IMG/VR virus record: IMGVR_UViG_3300007735_000648
Location: 1 to 34,281 of that record
Direction: 5' to 3' (one strand)
Length of the DNA: 34,281 nucleotides
From: a virus
In this document: piece by piece, positions 6,412 through 29,332 of the stretch
Layout of the letters: every line of letters begins with the position of its first letter
Numbering within the stretch: position 1 is the first letter of the stretch
Notes under the pieces: generated by a model
The model's input: the letters and a program-made list of their open reading frames with translations, nothing else
Database searches by the model: none
What the model was told of the DNA's origin: nothing
Made by a program: the position numbers and the translations under genes

Positions 6412-7026
6412 TTATGTAGTTGAAGTAGTTGAAGTTCCTGAACCGCTTCCGGTTACTGGATCAGTTGCTACACCAGGGGTTCCAATAAGATCTTCATATT
6501 TTACATACCTGAAACAAAATGTAACATCAAATTCTGTATATTGATCTCTAGCCTGCATCTCCATATCGAGTTTGGAAATACTCTGGGGCCAACAATCAAA
6601 TAATGTAGCTTTTTTCAAAACTTTTGTATCGTTTAAATCTAATTGTTCAACTATTATATTAACAACTAATTGTTCAAATGAATCGTAGGATTCATCTGTA
6701 ACATTTGTAGTATGTTTATTAATTAAATTATTCCAGCGATATAAATCGTACCATAAACTTTCAAGAAATGTGGTTGGTTTCTTTAAATCATCTAAAACTG
6801 TTATATTCCATAAATTTGACACTTCTCCATAAATTCTATCTCCAGGATAATAAATCTTTCTACCCTGGTAATCAATTGGATTAGCGGTTATAATTGAAGC
6901 TGGAAGAGATGTAGCAGAGACATGAAAAGAATCAAATTTTACAAAATCATTAGTTCCAGATCTAACTCTATATCTGTTTCTTCTTGTACCACCAGAAAAA
7001 TTTCTTTTAAATTTTGATATGGACAT
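6412..7026 (-). CDS. 19: Tail tube protein gp19, copy A
   Basis: This 204-residue tail tube paralogue is the third of three in a row and lies next to the portal gene. The family core is clear: a KRNFSGGTRRNRYRV start, LPASIITANP then DYQGRKIYYPGDRIYGE at about residues 41-66, WNITVLDD, CWPQSISKLDMEMQARDQYT and a closing VTFCFRYVKYED. T4 gp19 (163 residues) has the matching GLWPTNVGELQLDW and LALDYWE. The final 25 residues are a Gly/Ser/Thr tail, absent from copy B. Copy A shares an 88-base identical stretch with copy B, so one arose by recent duplication or gene conversion. Tube proteins stack as hexameric rings around the tape measure inside the sheath. Which of the three copies is the main tube subunit cannot be told from sequence. 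Confidence 0.93.
   Translation of the reverse strand: MSISKFKRNFSGGTRRNRYRVRSGTNDFVKFDSFHVSATSLPASIITANPIDYQGRKIYYPGDRIYGEVSNLWNITVLDDLKKPTTFLESLWYDLYRWNNLINKHTTNVTDESYDSFEQLVVNIIVEQLDLNDTKVLKKATLFDCWPQSISKLDMEMQARDQYTEFDVTFCFRYVKYEDLIGTPGVATDPVTGSGSGTSTTSTT
6822..6909. repeat. 88-bp direct repeat, copy 1 (in tube gene A)
   Basis: These 88 bases are identical to 7377-7464 and code for the LPASIITANP to DRIYGE core of the tube protein. Further shorter identities occur near 6538-6566 and 7104-7132 (the CMQARDQY region). Perfect identity, including silent sites, points to recent duplication or gene conversion. Confidence 0.95.
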
Positions 7027-7035
7027 TTTAATTAA

Positions 7036-7596
7036 TTATCCTTGGTTTTCGTGGTCAGTATATTCAACATATCTGAAGCAGAATGTAACTTCAAACTGAG
7101 AATATTGATCTCTAGCCTGCATCTCCATATCAACCTTTGAAATACTCTGGGGCCAACAATATCTTAGAGTTGCAGTTTTTAAATCTAGATTATCATTTAA
7201 ATCAAATTGTGTAACTGTTAGTTTAGCAAGATAAAGAGATTCTATATTTCCATCTGAAGTGTTTGTGGTGTGACCATTTATGTTTTTATTCCATGTATGA
7301 AGTTGTTTCCACAATGAAGAACTTCCTGCGCTTCCCTCAATATCGTCCAAGATTGTAATTGTCCAAAGATTAGAAGCTTCTCCATAAATTCTATCTCCAG
7401 GATAATAAATCTTTCTACCCTGGTAATCAATTGGATTAGCGGTTATAATTGAAGCTGGAAGAGAAGCAGCAGCGACATGGTATGGGCTAAAATCTGCCAG
7501 TACTGTAGAACCACTTTCACGAATAGCTGGACTTACTTTAAATCTATTTCGTCTTGTACCACCATCAAAATTTTCTTTAAATTTTGCTATTGACAT
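7036..7596 (-). CDS. 19: Tail tube protein gp19, copy B
   Basis: This 186-residue second tube paralogue is nearly the same as copy A through its central core (LPASIITANP then DYQGRKIYYPGDRIYGE, and CWPQSISKVDMEMQARDQYS). It differs in the amino-terminal strand, the 80-130 loop region (EGSAGSSSLWKQLHTWNK in place of KKPTTFLESLWYDLYRWNN) and the lack of the Ser/Thr-rich tail. It starts with an AAGGAA ribosome site 11 bases before copy C ends, so the three tube genes form one transcription unit. Divergence confined to surface loops suggests the two copies could occupy different rings of one tube or contact different partners; that is an inference. Confidence 0.93.
   Translation of the reverse strand: MSIAKFKENFDGGTRRNRFKVSPAIRESGSTVLADFSPYHVAAASLPASIITANPIDYQGRKIYYPGDRIYGEASNLWTITILDDIEGSAGSSSLWKQLHTWNKNINGHTTNTSDGNIESLYLAKLTVTQFDLNDNLDLKTATLRYCWPQSISKVDMEMQARDQYSQFEVTFCFRYVEYTDHENQG
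7377..7464. repeat. 88-bp direct repeat, copy 2 (in tube gene B)
   Basis: The partner of 6822-6909, 555 bases away in the same orientation. Homologous exchange between the copies would delete or fuse tube genes A and B in frame. Confidence 0.95.
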
Positions 7597-7607
7597 TTAA
7601 ATTCCTT

Positions 7608-8192
7608 TCAAGCAGTTGGATTTGAACTAAATCCGCCTTCGCCAGATTCTGTTTCAATTCCTTGAATTTCAATGTAATTATAAAGCATTCTAACTGTGAA
7701 CGAGTTAAATGCACTAGAATCCATTTGGAAACTCAGTGGACTCACAAAGGTTGGCCAGCATTCTCTTAATCTAATAGCCTTTTCTACTCCACCATCTAGT
7801 CTTAGCTGATAAACATACCAACTATCACTAATAATATCAGAAAAACTATCGCTGTCTGCTGAGTGTTCGTTATCTGCCTGGTTATTAAATAATTCTGTCC
7901 ATGCTTGAAATCTAGCATATAAACCACCACTAATATCATCTAATACAGTGATATCCCATGGTTCATAGATTCTATCTCCAACATATGGAATTTTTCTACC
8001 TCTATATGGAAAGTCAACTACACCTAGAGTTGCATTTGGGAGACTCGTTGAAAGAACATGAAATTTTAACTTTTGAGCGTTAACCAGATCAGTGCCAGAT
8101 GATGTTGGTAACACACCATTTACGACAAATCTATTTTTTCTAAGACCGCCTTTAAACCCCTGAATAAAGTTTGAAATTGAATTTTGACCCAT
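7608..8192 (-). CDS. 19: Tail tube protein gp19, copy C (divergent)
   Basis: This 194-residue tube paralogue is the first after the sheath genes. It keeps the family plan: IQGFKGGLRKNRFVV, LPNATLGVVDFPYRGRKIPY then VGDRIYEPWDITVLDD, RECWPTFVSPLSFQMDSS and VRMLYNYIEIQ. It is clearly older than copies A and B, which are near twins: only short blocks such as RGRKI and GDRIY are shared. A well-placed AGAGAGG ribosome site precedes the ATG. In T4 the single gp19 gene directly follows the sheath gene, so by position copy C is a good candidate for the ancestral tube subunit, but expression data would be needed to say which copy dominates. Confidence 0.92.
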   Translation of the reverse strand: MGQNSISNFIQGFKGGLRKNRFVVNGVLPTSSGTDLVNAQKLKFHVLSTSLPNATLGVVDFPYRGRKIPYVGDRIYEPWDITVLDDISGGLYARFQAWTELFNNQADNEHSADSDSFSDIISDSWYVYQLRLDGGVEKAIRLRECWPTFVSPLSFQMDSSAFNSFTVRMLYNYIEIQGIETESGEGGFSSNPTA

Positions 8193-8204: not shown

Positions 8205-9491
8205 TTATGTAGTAAAATTTAAATTTATAATTGTTTCGCCTTGAATAGGAGTAAGAGATATATCCACTACAAATTGTCTAGCAGATATAACTTCTTCCGT
8301 ATTATTCGATGAATCGCAAACTACATTGTAGTAAGAAACACCATTTCTATTTGCTATATCTTCCATTATGGTATTCATCTTAGTTCTGATGAAATTTCTC
8401 AATTCTGGTTTATTTGGGTCAAAAATATAACGATTTATTATACTTTGTCCATTTCTGGATATAAAAGATATTAAATTTGTAAAAGTTACACTTCTTTTTT
8501 CAGGAACAACATTTGAATATTCTCCAGAAAAATCGCTAGAAAGATAATATTCTCCATTATACTTTAGTATTGTGTTTATGCCTCTTAAGTGAGCTATTCC
8601 GATTTCAGAACCAGCAGATAAACTCAAATCGCTTGGGGTTTTTGGCAAAAAATCTTCAGACGTATATATTTTTGGAAGATTTATAGTTGTAAAATTTTGA
8701 TTTAGTATTTTACCATTTTCCAAATTGGCAGGATTAGCCCAAGCATTAGTAGAATACAATCTTGAAAATATTCCAGATATATCTGATAAAACTGATATTA
8801 AAACATACGGATTATTTGAATATTCTTCGTCATTTGATATATCTTCGTCTGAAAAATATCTTTTTATTCTTTTAACTCCACAAACATTGAAAGTCATCTG
8901 ATTGAAATCTTCATTATTTAATTCACTTCTTAAATAAAAATCAGAAAACTTTAAATTAATATCGCTAAGATTTGTATCAATATAATAGTATTTTTCTGGA
9001 GTTTTAAACGTAGAAGAATCTATACTAGTATTTAATAGTAAAGGTATCTTTATCTTTGAAACTTCAGTTTTTAAAGTCGAAGATATGGTAGTTTTTAACG
9101 GATCATATGTAAGAAATACCAAATTAAATGTATTCAATGCCTGATATAAGTTGTTTTCAGTGCTTGCCTTTATAAGAACCAAATTATAATTGTAGTGCAG
9201 AGCATCTAAAATATAATTAAAATAAAAATCTATTTTTCTTACATCAGCCACATTTGCTGAATATTCAATTTTATTTAAAAATGTTATAAATAAATCTTCA
9301 CTTGTTATTTCAGAATCTATTTGAGTAAAATCTGCATTTTGTATATCTGAAATAAAATCCTGAATGTTAGTATATTTTTTATATGGATCTGTTATTTGTA
9401 AAACATCAAACAATAAAGAATCATAGATGACGAAGCCGACATCTATGTTCTTTTTTTGTTCTATTTCTTTTATAGTGAAGTTAAGTGGCAT
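8205..9491 (-). CDS. 18: Second tail sheath protein, gp18 paralogue B
   Basis: This 428-residue protein is homologous to the sheath protein encoded just upstream. The carboxy-terminal domain matches best: NGVSYYNVVCDSSNNTEEV then ISARQFVVDISLTPI and a final strand INLNFTT, parallel to NGVSTYRITCDESNNTEAV and NARQLVLDLTFKP in paralogue A. That region carries the sheath strands that link neighbouring subunits. The rest is much more diverged and rich in Asn, Ile, Ser and Lys. Both copies are far shorter than T4 gp18 (659 residues) and lack its surface insertions. Its start overlaps the stop of paralogue A (TAATG). Likely roles are a minor or terminal sheath ring, or an alternative sheath; the sequence does not decide. 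Confidence 0.88.
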   Translation of the reverse strand: MPLNFTIKEIEQKKNIDVGFVIYDSLLFDVLQITDPYKKYTNIQDFISDIQNADFTQIDSEITSEDLFITFLNKIEYSANVADVRKIDFYFNYILDALHYNYNLVLIKASTENNLYQALNTFNLVFLTYDPLKTTISSTLKTEVSKIKIPLLLNTSIDSSTFKTPEKYYYIDTNLSDINLKFSDFYLRSELNNEDFNQMTFNVCGVKRIKRYFSDEDISNDEEYSNNPYVLISVLSDISGIFSRLYSTNAWANPANLENGKILNQNFTTINLPKIYTSEDFLPKTPSDLSLSAGSEIGIAHLRGINTILKYNGEYYLSSDFSGEYSNVVPEKRSVTFTNLISFISRNGQSIINRYIFDPNKPELRNFIRTKMNTIMEDIANRNGVSYYNVVCDSSNNTEEVISARQFVVDISLTPIQGETIINLNFTT

Positions 9492-10669
9492 TATGCCTGA
9501 TTAACTGCAAATCTTAGAGTAACAGTTTCAATTGCGTAATATGGCTTGAAAGTCAAATCAAGTACAAGCTGTCTTGCATTTATTACTGCCTCTGTATTAT
9601 TTGACTCGTCGCAAGTTATTCTATAGGTTGAAACTCCATTACCTATTCTAACCCCTTCCATTATGGAAGCAACTGTAGAAACTACTCTAGATCTAGTCTC
9701 AGCATTATTGATCTCAAAGAGAACGCTCTCTAGAATTGGTCTTACAGATCTTCTAATATGAAGAAGAAGTCTTGCTACGTTTAGATACATTCTATCAGCG
9801 TCAGTTGTTTCAGCTGTAGCGTTGCCCATCAAGAAAATACCATCATTGCCATAAACACCGACGAAAGAATTAATTCCGTAAGTATTATTTAAAGTTTCTA
9901 CATCGGTAGAACCAAACTTAGGAGTAATATCTTTAAAGTTGCTAGGTAGAATTTGACCTCTTTGAACTCCAGCAGGAGCAATCCAAGGATTAAATGCCTT
10001 ATCAGTCCTGGCCATTAAACCAGCAGTATCGGATGTCATTAGAATATCGACTGGACCAGTTGAAGTTCCATATAGTCTGTCGATCTTCTTTCTTCCAATT
10101 ACGCTGAAGAAAAGATCGTCATATGCGGTCACGCCAGCAATTCCAGTTATACCAGCATAGTCATAAATTGCCATTGAGTGGCTTGGATAAGTGCCAGTTG
10201 TTCCTGAATGATATTCGAATGAAGAACCAATTACACCAATGCAATCTTTACGAAGTGCAACTACGCGAATTACATCATCAAATTTATCATTTCTCTGACA
10301 GAAAACCGAATCGAGATTTAAATTTGTATTGTTTAGCTGAGTTGCACCAGTAGCAGCGACCAAACTTCCTCCGTATCGGAGATAATTAATCATTGCGTGT
10401 AGTTCTTTATCAAGATCTGTATTTCCGCTAAATCCTGCGGCAGTTCCAGCAAATCCAGAAGACGTTCCTGCCAAAACTGAGGCATCGAATACGCCAAGTA
10501 TAGAATTTACATCATTAAAAATTTTGTATTCTGGCTGTGGGCTATCGTTGGCAACTAGTTTTGAGTATAAGGATGCTCCAGCAAGGAATCCAGATAAGTG
10601 TTCTGATGCCTCTGCTTGAACTCCTAATTGAATGTTTGCTGCTGTTTGAAAAATGTTGATTGTTGGCAT
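9491..10669 (-). CDS. 18: Tail sheath protein gp18, paralogue A (probably main)
   Basis: This 392-residue contractile sheath protein has an amino terminus MPTINIFQTAANIQLGVQAE, a central segment with RLYGTSTGPVDILMTSDTAG and NPWIAPAGVQRGQI, and a carboxy-terminal domain RIGNGVSTYRITCDESNNTE then NARQLVLDLTFKPY and a final strand VTLRFAVNQA. The NPWIAPAG-type motif and the final domain are hallmarks of myovirus sheaths. It lacks the large outer insertions of T4 gp18, so it is a minimal sheath. Its position right after the large terminase, its richer G+C codon use compared with paralogue B, a GAGGAA ribosome site and a late promoter box inside the end of gp17 all suggest high expression, hence the main sheath subunit. 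Confidence 0.95.
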   Translation of the reverse strand: MPTINIFQTAANIQLGVQAEASEHLSGFLAGASLYSKLVANDSPQPEYKIFNDVNSILGVFDASVLAGTSSGFAGTAAGFSGNTDLDKELHAMINYLRYGGSLVAATGATQLNNTNLNLDSVFCQRNDKFDDVIRVVALRKDCIGVIGSSFEYHSGTTGTYPSHSMAIYDYAGITGIAGVTAYDDLFFSVIGRKKIDRLYGTSTGPVDILMTSDTAGLMARTDKAFNPWIAPAGVQRGQILPSNFKDITPKFGSTDVETLNNTYGINSFVGVYGNDGIFLMGNATAETTDADRMYLNVARLLLHIRRSVRPILESVLFEINNAETRSRVVSTVASIMEGVRIGNGVSTYRITCDESNNTEAVINARQLVLDLTFKPYYAIETVTLRFAVNQA

Positions 10670-26210: not shown

Positions 26211-26648
26211 GTGCCATATAAAACAAAATTTTTGCCTGAACATGTAGAGAAATACATCGGAAACCACGGTAAAATACTTTGTAAATCTCTTTGGGAAAGA
26301 AAGGTTTGTAAATATTTAGACTTAAACGAAAATATAATAAATTGGTGTTATGAATGTATAAAAATTCCATATATTTCACCAATTGATAATAAAAAACATA
26401 TTTACTTTCCAGATTTTGTGGTCAAATCTAAAGAAAAAAACGGCACTGAAAGAACGATGATCCTAGAAGTAAAACCAGAAAAACAAACCAAAGAGCCAAA
26501 AAACGTTAAAAGAAAATCTTATAAAAATGATTTTATAACATTTAAAATTAATGAAGCCAAATGGAAAGCAGCTGAAATGTTTTGCAAAACAAATAATTGG
26601 GAATTTAAACTGTTAACAGAAAAAACATTGTTTGGGACTAATAAATGA
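26211..26648 (+). CDS. 4: Head completion protein gp4
   Basis: This 145-residue protein matches T4 gp4 (150 residues), a late head completion protein with a PD-(D/E)xK-nuclease-like fold. Shared elements are KFLPEHVEKYIGNHGKILCK with SLWERKVCKYLD (T4: KWVPKNISKYRGDPKKITYR then SNWEKFFFEWLD), YFPDF and EVKPEKQT at about residues 64-90 (T4: YFMD and EIKPKKET), and NEAKWKAAEMFCKTNNWEFK at about 107-126 (T4: NTDKWKAAQSLAEKRGIKFR). The DF and E-x-K residues have the spacing of the nuclease motif. The start is GTG at 26211, aligning with the T4 start; no ribosome site is visible. Its stop overlaps the next start as ATGA. Confidence 0.93.
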   Translation: MPYKTKFLPEHVEKYIGNHGKILCKSLWERKVCKYLDLNENIINWCYECIKIPYISPIDNKKHIYFPDFVVKSKEKNGTERTMILEVKPEKQTKEPKNVKRKSYKNDFITFKINEAKWKAAEMFCKTNNWEFKLLTEKTLFGTNK

Positions 26649-27244
26649 GTATTCAACAAATAGTACAAAATATTAAAGATCATGGTGGCATACAGAGAAA
26701 AAGTAAGTTTTCTGTATTCTTTGAAGTAGAGTGTAACACAGACGATGATGGTCTAGAAACAAAAGTAGAAAATAAATTGTCATCAGATGATCTAACTAGC
26801 TTTCTTCCTCCAATTGAAGTTTTATTTGGGGGAAGAAAATTGGAGTTAATGGCTGATAGACTAACCGGACCAGGATCAGGTAGACTAATTCCAATCAATC
26901 CAGATTTTACCAGTCAATATGGATTAATGATGACATTTCCTATTGAGCAAGATTTTAAGCAATTTAAATTCTTTGACAAATGGTTTCGGCATCTCGCTGT
27001 AGATTCCCAAGCAGGAGCACCGACATTTGCAAACTTTTATAATAACTGTGCAAGAAATGGAACCATAACTGTAAATTTTTTAAATTATAATGGAGAATTG
27101 GCATGCAAATTTATATTTGAAGAAGCTTATCCAGTTCAAATAACACAAGTAGAGCTTAATGCTACGCCCAATAGTGGTCCCGCTACATATGACATACTGT
27201 TCAACTACAGAAGATATGTGATGACACCTACTCAAGAACCATAA
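26645..27244 (+). CDS. Tail-tube-fold protein next to gp4
   Basis: This 199-residue protein has the tube-fold layout: a KSKFSVFFEVEC strand, LPPIEVLFGGRKLEL, an IP turn, LMMTFPIEQDFKQFKFFDKW (about residues 98-117), then FEEAYPVQITQVELNAT and a final strand YDILFNYRRYVM. The end part parallels ELYPVSLSGIRFTTEA and VTFAYTYYSF in the protein at 519-1028. It may be a baseplate or tail-end tube-like protein (gp48/gp54/gp3 kin) or another minor tube ring. In T4 the gene after gp4 is gp53, which this does not resemble. The start overlaps the gp4 stop. Confidence 0.6.
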   Translation: MSIQQIVQNIKDHGGIQRKSKFSVFFEVECNTDDDGLETKVENKLSSDDLTSFLPPIEVLFGGRKLELMADRLTGPGSGRLIPINPDFTSQYGLMMTFPIEQDFKQFKFFDKWFRHLAVDSQAGAPTFANFYNNCARNGTITVNFLNYNGELACKFIFEEAYPVQITQVELNATPNSGPATYDILFNYRRYVMTPTQEP

Positions 27245-27259
27245 TCAAGATAAACTTTT

Positions 27260-27958
27260 ATGATAAAATTAAATAGAAATTTTCCAATTTACGAGTGCAA
27301 TATTCCTAGCAAAAATAAATTAATAAAATTTAGACCATTTTTGGTATCAGATGAAAAAAATCTTTTAGTAATAAAAGAGGAAAATAATAAAAAGTTAGTA
27401 TTTGAAAACATATTATCTTTATTGGAAAATTGTTTTTATGATATTAACATAAATGAAATTACATTGCAAGATATGGAGTTTATGTTCTGTGCTCTCCGGG
27501 CAAAGTCTGTTGGTGAATACATTCCAATGTCATTTGAATGCCCAAAAACAAATGAAAAGGTAAAATCTGTCTTAGATATCAGCAAATTAAATGTTATGTC
27601 TGGAATTAGGCAGAAAGAAATGACCTTAGATGCAAATAATAAAATAGTTTTAAAAGAACCAACTATTAAGAAAATCTTACTAATTGATGGCAACTTCGAC
27701 ACAGAACACTTTATAAAAGCATCAATTGATAAAATAATAATTGATGATAATTTTTATGAATTAGCTGATATTTCCCAAGAAGAATTTAACTCTATTTTAA
27801 CGCAACTTACAGTTGGCGAATATGATCAAATAAAAGAATTTGTCAACAATCTTCCAAAGATAACAGCAATTGTAGAATATCAAACAAAAGATGGAGAACA
27901 AAGAAAAACGAAAGTAGAGGGCATTTTAAATTTTTTTACACATGCCTATCGCACATAA
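27260..27958 (+). CDS. Baseplate/tail assembly chaperone, gp26/gp51 family
   Basis: This 232-residue protein belongs to the T4 baseplate protein family that includes gp26 and gp51, needed for hub assembly. The diagnostic part is ITLQDMEFMFCALRAKSVGE followed by YIPMSFECPKTNEKVKSVLD at about residues 73-112: an LR-x-x-S-x-G segment, then I-x-x-x-x-x-C and strands in place of the common C-x-x-C zinc-ribbon remnant. The closing part (LTQLTVGEYDQIKEFVNNLP, then IVEYQTKDGEQRKTKVEG) also fits. A T TTT TTT heptamer at codons 225-226 allows a -1 shift into the frame that runs to 28137, so a longer product of about 292 residues is predicted besides the 232-residue form. Confidence 0.8.
   Translation: MIKLNRNFPIYECNIPSKNKLIKFRPFLVSDEKNLLVIKEENNKKLVFENILSLLENCFYDININEITLQDMEFMFCALRAKSVGEYIPMSFECPKTNEKVKSVLDISKLNVMSGIRQKEMTLDANNKIVLKEPTIKKILLIDGNFDTEHFIKASIDKIIIDDNFYELADISQEEFNSILTQLTVGEYDQIKEFVNNLPKITAIVEYQTKDGEQRKTKVEGILNFFTHAYRT
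27931..27937 (+). promoter_or_regulatory. Candidate -1 ribosomal slippery site T TTT TTT
   Basis: Seven consecutive T, read in frame as AA(T) TTT TTT, six codons before the stop of the gp26/51-like gene. An AGAGGG purine stretch at 27916-27921 lies 9 bases upstream, a spacing at which Shine-Dalgarno-like contacts can stimulate backward slipping. No clear downstream pseudoknot was seen. Confidence 0.65.
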
Positions 27959-28137
27959 ACGTAATTTCTTATTTTAAGATTTTACATTTTCTGAGCGTAG
28001 GCGCAAATATTTCCATAGAGCAGAGCGAAAATATGTTTCCGTGGGAAAGAGAAATTTATATGCTACAGCATAAGACCTGGTTAGAGGACGAGAAACTGAA
28101 GAATGAAAAACGAAAATCCGACAACAAACTACACTAA
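27937..28137 (+). CDS. -1 frame extension of the tail chaperone (GT-type)
   Basis: From the slippery site the -1 frame gives 66 codons ending at TAA 28135-28137; the same frame is open upstream as far as 27826. The product part begins YTCLSHINVISYF and ends with a charged helix, SENMFPWEREIYMLQHKTWL then EDEKLKNEKRKSDNKLH. This helix looks like real protein and sits over the only sizeable gap between genes (27959-28102). The frame runs 35 bases into the next gene, as T does into H in lambda. Two readings are possible: a fusion made by -1 frameshift (226 + 66 residues), or a separate 34-residue peptide from the ATG at 28033. The first fits known tail chaperones better. Confidence 0.6.
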   Translation, partial: YTCLSHINVISYFKILHFLSVGANISIEQSENMFPWEREIYMLQHKTWLEDEKLKNEKRKSDNKLH

Positions 28138-29332
28138 TTACGATTTTTTAAATTCTAATCCAAACAAGGATCAGTTAATATCTTCGTTTTCTCCAGTTTC
28201 CGATGAAGCTATTAGTCCTACGGAACAAGAAAATGAAAATACAGTAGGCGAAAATCCAGTCGAATATCAACCAATAGATGATATTGATACAGTAATACCG
28301 CAAACAGAAACACTAAGAGTAGTAGAATTTGAACAAACATTTACACAAATAGCAAATGAGAATAATATAACTACAGAAAATTCTATAGAGCCGATAGATT
28401 CTATAGAATTTGATAATGAAAATTCTATAGAAAGTTCTTTTGAAATACCAGAAATTCAGTCTGGAACAGAAATAGTTTCTGATACTGAAATTATAGAAAC
28501 TTCTTTGGAAGTAAATGATTTAACTCAGGTTGAAACACCAGCTCTGGACACTTCTAGCAACACGTTTGTTCCAGAAGAAGTTCCTACTCTAGAGACTGAT
28601 AGCAACACCTTTCTACCAGAAGAAGTTCCTACTCTAGAGACTGATAGCAACACGTTTGTTCCTGAAGAAGTTCCTAGTTTAGAGACTGATCAGAATACGT
28701 TTGTTCCTGAAGAAGTTCCTAGTTTAGAGACTGATCAGAATACGTTTGTTCCTGAAGAAGTTCCTAGTTTAGAGACTGATCAGAATACGTTTGTTCCTGA
28801 AGAAGTTCCTAGTTTAGAAACAGACAGTAACACGTTTGTTCCTGAAGAAGTTCCTAGTTTAGAGACTGATCAGAATACGTTTGTTCCTGATGAAGTTCCA
28901 TCGTTTGATGCTTCTTCAAATAATGTTGTAAGTGAAGAAATACCATCGTTGGAGAATATTGATAATACTTATTCTCCCGAAGAAATTCCAAATATTGATG
29001 CATCTGTAAATACATTTGATCCGGAGAAGCCACCAGAAATAAAAATAGAAAATATTTCTTCGCAATCGATAGATGAATTAATTTCGCAAGCAAGAGATGT
29101 GATGGAATCTAAATTAGATCCTTTAGCACAAAGAATTTCTTCAATAGAAGAACTCGTATCTAAATTTCAAACCACCAAAGCTAAAGAAGTAGGATTCAAT
29201 ACAGTCAAACCATTTGCAAATCTGATGGATAATCAAAGAAAAGTTAATATAAAACCTGGTTTTAATTCAGATTTGACAACTACTTTGTCAAAAATAAAAA
29301 ACCCTCCGGTTTGGAGGGTTTTTGGAAACTAA
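28103..29332 (+). CDS. Acidic protein with eleven 15-residue repeats
   Basis: I cannot assign this 409-residue protein to a family. Residues 1-147 are acidic and look disordered (Glu, Asn, Thr, Ile). Residues 148-312 consist of eleven units of 15 residues, consensus LETDQNTFVPEEVPS; the middle ones are almost identical in DNA, the outer ones degenerate. Residues 318-350 form a possible coiled coil (SIDELISQARDVMESKLDPL then AQRISSIEELVSKF). The carboxy end KNPPVWRVFGN is encoded by the terminator stem. It directly follows the GT-type chaperone and overlaps its -1 frame, which is where tape measure genes lie in lambda- and P2-like phages. A tape measure, a virion-injected protein or a fibre/linker are all possible; the Pro-rich repeats are not typical of a helical tape measure. 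Confidence 0.85.
   Translation: MKNENPTTNYTNYDFLNSNPNKDQLISSFSPVSDEAISPTEQENENTVGENPVEYQPIDDIDTVIPQTETLRVVEFEQTFTQIANENNITTENSIEPIDSIEFDNENSIESSFEIPEIQSGTEIVSDTEIIETSLEVNDLTQVETPALDTSSNTFVPEEVPTLETDSNTFLPEEVPTLETDSNTFVPEEVPSLETDQNTFVPEEVPSLETDQNTFVPEEVPSLETDQNTFVPEEVPSLETDSNTFVPEEVPSLETDQNTFVPDEVPSFDASSNNVVSEEIPSLENIDNTYSPEEIPNIDASVNTFDPEKPPEIKIENISSQSIDELISQARDVMESKLDPLAQRISSIEELVSKFQTTKAKEVGFNTVKPFANLMDNQRKVNIKPGFNSDLTTTLSKIKNPPVWRVFGN
28544..29038 (+). repeat. Eleven tandem 45-bp repeats
   Basis: In-frame 45-bp units encode the LETDQNTFVPEEVPS-type repeat. Units 4 to 6 are the same or nearly the same in DNA, while units 9 to 11 have drifted. This suggests expansion by recombination or slippage in the centre of the array, with copy number free to vary by 15 residues at a time. 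Confidence 0.95.
29297..29323. terminator. Bidirectional terminator overlapping the end of the repeat gene
   Basis: An 11-bp stem (AAAAACCCTCC with GGAGGGTTTTT) has a 5-base loop and U-rich tails on both strands: TTTTT on the plus strand and TTTTTTATTTTT on the minus strand. The stem lies inside the last codons of the repeat gene, before its TAA at 29330, and 16 bases beyond the gp32 stop of the facing gene. It should serve both convergent genes. Confidence 0.88.

Follow-up and report, generated by a model that had tools for sequence, protein, structure and literature searches.

Evidence for a −1 ribosomal frameshift joining gp26 and gp51 in tail chaperone genes of T4-related phages

Introduction

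How is gp51 related to gp26 in phages akin to T4, and could one gene supply both? The question is raised by the viral record IMGVR_UViG_3300007735_000648, the whole 34,281-nucleotide stretch of which was analysed and is referred to here as the window. In it, a gp26-like gene ends shortly after a T TTT TTT heptamer, and gp51-like sequence follows in the −1 frame. Frameshifted tail chaperones are a known principle and are not new; a review describes the G–T shift as broadly conserved in long-tailed phages, "except T4" (Atkins 2016, PMC5009743). Furthermore, Vladimirov, Gautam and Davidson (2022; Virology 566:9-15) are reported to have identified the T4-like tail chaperones, and later papers cite their study for slippery poly-T sequences within the TAC-N genes of T4-like phages (PMC12846349) and for the existence of some T4-like phages with separate short and fused long copies (PMC10885494). 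An earlier note on this DNA had presented a link from the T4 baseplate family to the general tail chaperone scheme as novel, which was overstated, because by the account of these citing papers the link had already been made. Here we ask whether the window encodes such a shift, how widely its signals are conserved, and what this implies for gp51 in T4 itself.

Results

The gp26-like gene lies directly downstream of a tail-tube-like gene, the usual neighbour of tail chaperone genes. The features of the locus are:

26645-27244, + strand: tail-tube-like gene (phrog_45 tail tube, E = 1.3e-13)
27260-27958, + strand: gp26-like gene in the 0 frame, the putative short chaperone TAC-N (232 aa)
27916-27921, + strand: Shine-Dalgarno (SD)-like AGAGGG, 9 nt before the heptamer (GGAGGG in most relatives)
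27931-27937, + strand: slippery heptamer T TTT TTT, the candidate −1 shift site (T TTT TTN at all 118 loci compared, with synonymous bias)
27937-28137, + strand: C-terminal gp51 part of the predicted fusion, 66 codons and a stop read in the −1 frame (phrog_634; tblastn; alignment)
27944-28002, + strand: predicted stem-loop, 6 nt past the heptamer (outer stem GCCUA.CGC / GCG UAGGC)
27956-27958, + strand: 0-frame TAA stop of gp26
Junction-spanning peptide of the predicted fusion in the window: ...EGILNFFYTCLSH...

The gp26-like reading frame ends GTA GAG GGC ATT TTA AAT TTT TTT ACA CAT GCC TAT CGC ACA TAA, where AAT TTT TTT has the phase required for a −1 shift and the TAA lies six codons on. 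The earlier note had placed an in-phase heptamer six codons before the stop and AGAGGG 9 bases upstream of it, and had described a 144-base gap after the gene (27959-28102) with a 35-base overlap between the −1 frame and the next gene, at 28103; all of these were confirmed. Together, the gp26-like part and the −1 extension would make a fusion of 292 aa (TAC-NC). In the window the next gene along is not the tape measure gene, which is annotated one or two genes downstream in HTVC008M, Cr30 and RHph_I1_18. The gene that does follow gp51 (28103-29332, 409 aa) gave no convincing family match in profile searches, and contains about 7.6 copies of a 45-bp repeat (28559-28939, + strand) encoding a 15-residue unit like NTFVPEEVPSLETDQ. 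Elsewhere in the window, on the − strand, are three adjoining tail-tube-like genes at 6412-8192, all matching phrog_45 (the gene at 26645-27244 on the + strand being a fourth), and two adjoining tail-sheath-like genes at 8205-10669 (phrog_23), one match being far weaker than the other.

In profile searches the 0-frame protein matched PF12322 T4_baseplate (E = 1.3e-40) and phrog_150 (E = 4.6e-41). Searching the 66-residue extension against phage proteins, a check proposed earlier, was productive: it matched phrog_634, "baseplate hub assembly catalyst" (E = 9.7e-14), with the slip site as the point where the match begins, and tblastn hits fell on gp51 genes annotated in cyanophages and in phages of Pelagibacter, Methylophilales and Caulobacter. 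In an alignment of seven extension sequences, F1, F2, Y14, E33, P37, E39, R40 and Y43 are invariant. By homology, gp26 is encoded in the 0 frame and gp51 by the −1 extension, a reading that replaces the former description of a single "gp26/51-like" gene. The AlphaFold2 model of gp26 (pLDDT 91) resembles predicted baseplate hub proteins of T4-like phages. Fold searches with this model against the PDB gave no significant match to any solved structure, so the tail chaperone fold is putative; a G-like chaperone action of gp26 is suggested by the literature and the gene context.

The open −1 frame of about 100 codons that had been reported stood in part. It is indeed open from 27826 to 28134 (about 103 codons), with a stop at 28135-28137. 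However, the 35 of these codons that precede the slip site were rejected as protein; they are open by chance and not conserved among the 118 loci, where the −1 frame opens a median of eight codons ahead of the site. The protein-coding part is only the 66 codons after the slip.

The 118 loci comprise 80 viral contigs, 31 usable contigs binned as bacterial or archaeal, six phage records and the window. The contig loci were collected by a gp26 N-terminal motif, and the six phage records by gp26 and gp51 protein searches. Because the collection motif came from the gp26 N-terminus, the slip site had no influence on the choice of contigs. Querying the viral contigs with the single gp26 sequence of the window gave no matches, but an alignment query did find loci. 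Two genome contigs (L120 and L121) were left out, as they have no gp51 there and only partial gp26 matches. Loci L089 to L119 carry T4-like gp26–gp51 on contigs binned as many bacteria and archaea (for example Thaumarchaeota and Chloroflexi), and these are probably mis-binned phage contigs.

Comparison of these relatives for the heptamer and the −1 frame, also suggested in the earlier note, found both conserved throughout: in 118/118 loci, gp51 is in the −1 frame and T TTT TTN stands where gp51 homology begins. The last base of the heptamer is C in 81 loci, T in 32 and A in five, and the 0-frame stop follows 0 nt (24 loci) or 3 nt (86 loci) past the heptamer in 110/118. Synonymous codon choice is strongly biased towards the heptamer. 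Among 81 less-redundant loci of the first 87, all 81 have a T-ending codon before the two Phe codons, against 47 predicted by synonymous usage, and all 81 have TTT as the first Phe codon, against 60; the tests count related loci as independent, so that their P values are too strong. Judged on sequence, the arrangement is far beyond chance.

Selection at the codon level extends upstream. The Glu of a conserved Leu-Glu-Gly before the site is GAG in 59/69 loci, versus 28.6% elsewhere, a bias this strong being found at no other Glu position; the choice of GAG creates GGAGGG about 9 nt before the heptamer. Within the region, pairing with the anti-SD sequence is strongest about 10-19 nt before the heptamer. 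The −1 shift of dnaX is stimulated by an SD-like element placed about as far upstream, and the element here may act likewise. Downstream, the first ~60 nt after the heptamer are more stable than synonymous −1-frame variants (mean z −1.3 to −1.5, 83 loci), an excess confined to those ~60 nt, since RNA windows elsewhere in the loci give a mean z of about −0.1 to −0.2. In the window, the hairpin at 27944-28002 has an MFE of −20.5 and a z of −2.6, and was equalled in stability by 2/200 shuffles and 4/500 synonymous variants. Hairpin sequences vary among lineages, for example S-PM2 and S-SSM7, and a clear downstream hairpin is absent in about half of the loci.

The arrangement also occurs in wider relatives. 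T TTT TTC with a −1 gp51 was found in Menderavirus (Moby), Ionavirus (phiW-14) and Vibrio phage D481, as well as in two genera of Straboviridae, Ceceduovirus (Asswx_1) and Schizotequatrovirus (phi-Grn1, V07). Variant heptamers are present in RHph_I1_18 (T TTT TTA) and in RHph_N34 of the Pootjesviridae (T TTT TTG). The standard heptamer is absent at the gp26–gp51 junction of the Ackermannviridae LIMEstone1, Sa157lw, SeSz-1 and P01, in which the −1 gp51 follows a conserved GAR ATT TTC ATT TAA. This motif accompanies all four −1 gp51 regions:

L131, 1780-1960: −1 gp51 region
L132, 1780-1950: −1 gp51 region
L133, 1780-1960: −1 gp51 region
L128, 2285-2444: −1 gp51 region

Records of Kuttervirus and Taipeivirus leave gp51 unannotated, and there is no ATG there.

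In T4, the 249-aa gp51 contains a whole gp26-like domain and a gp51 domain in one frame. Its alignment spans the junction (blastp E = 2e-9; positions 23-280 of the fusion HMM), and the 208-aa T4 gp26 ends at the junction of the same HMM. On these alignments, T4 gp51 is the fusion encoded in a single frame, and T4 gp26 is just the short form. The two T4 genes are divergent, and the heptamer is in neither.

Discussion

The programmed −1 frameshift suggested in the earlier note is supported by the conserved heptamer and frame, by codon-level selection, by the putative flanking stimulators and by the in-frame fusion in T4. We consider it very likely, with a probability of about 0.93, that −1 ribosomal frameshifting makes both TAC-N (232 aa) and TAC-NC (292 aa) from one gene. 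Most ribosomes would complete gp26 and release TAC-N, the equivalent of lambda gpG. We infer that a minority would pause at T TTT TTT; the pause would be held by pairing of 16S rRNA with the upstream AGAGGG and by the block of the downstream hairpin. Two Phe tRNAs would then slip back by one base and reading would continue through gp51, giving the 292-aa fusion TAC-NC, the counterpart of gpGT. If the proteins act as in lambda, the tape measure would be coated by TAC-N and tube subunits would be brought in by the gp51 part, with neither protein remaining in the virion.

Could gp51 instead be a gene in its own right that overlaps gp26, with either a start codon of its own or translation through termination-reinitiation where gp26 stops? 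Records do annotate gp51 from an ATG that overlaps or lies just past the gp26 stop, and in 28/118 loci the first possible start is at extension position 6, from which a separate gp51 could begin. In the window, however, the −1 frame has no ATG, GTG or TTG before extension position 35, which is past most of the conserved N-terminal part. Many relatives likewise have no start ahead of most of this part; 44/118 loci have no possible start before position 15, whereas the other loci do have possible starts. The SD-like element cannot serve the annotated gp51 ATGs, because it is too far from them (about 20-25 nt), and a separate gene leaves the conserved heptamer and its codon bias unexplained. T4 gp51, moreover, has the gp26 part in frame. 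We therefore regard independent translation of gp51 as very unlikely.

A T run is found at every locus, which would suit slippage by the transcribing polymerase, with mixed mRNAs in place of ribosomal frameshifting. The run is only six T followed by C in 81/118 loci, which is short for polymerase slippage, and the phase, the SD-like spacing and the downstream structure all suit a ribosomal signal, making the transcriptional explanation highly improbable. Next to no weight can be given to a chance open frame or to a long gene broken in two by a sequencing indel. Both are conceivable in A+T-rich DNA from a metagenomic contig, but the same arrangement recurs in all 118 loci, which come from cultured phages as well as independent assemblies, and the gp51 homology is significant.

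With a ribosomal −1 shift at this site, annotations would need correcting in hundreds of genomes of cyanophages and marine phages, in which gp51 is called a separate gene, missing or begun at an arbitrary ATG, and the relation of T4 gp51 to gp26 would be explained. T4 is the named exception to the conserved tail chaperone frameshift (PMC5009743), an exception that most of the wider relatives sampled do not share. It is possible, at somewhat less than even odds, that a −1 shift with the three-part signal is ancestral for the tail chaperones of T4-related phages and still used in Schizotequatrovirus and Ceceduovirus, that T4 and its closest kin replaced the shift by gene duplication, and that the Ackermannviridae use a non-canonical shift to an often unannotated gp51. 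A literature search, in which subscription journals were poorly covered, found no description of the three-part signal in cyanophage-type loci. This signal, its retention in two non-T4 genera of Straboviridae and the non-canonical Ackermannviridae variant are probably the less known parts of the present work.

Among known systems, the gp26/gp51 chaperones of T4-like phages are of the same family and, by the account of papers citing their description (Vladimirov et al., 2022), likewise have two forms that share the gp26 part, the long one having gp51. T4 differs in having two separate genes without the heptamer, where the window has one gene with a −1 shift site. The lambda gpG/gpGT heptamer, G GGA AAG, differs from the T TTT TTT of the window, and we know of no SD-like stimulator described for that system. 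In P2, E and E+E′ use T TTT TTG, a heptamer of the same type as that of the window and the very one seen in RHph_N34, the likeness noted here being one of signal. E. coli dnaX has the same layout as here, namely an SD-like element, which sits about 10 nt upstream, a slippery heptamer and a downstream hairpin. However, dnaX is an unrelated gene, and the shift shortens its product, whereas it would lengthen the product here. Finally, the tail chaperone genes of Vandenendeviridae and Andersonviridae (GTTTTT, PMC12846349) have, as here, a conserved −1 shift at a poly-T site; these are different phage families from that of the window, and the likeness noted here is one of shift signal.
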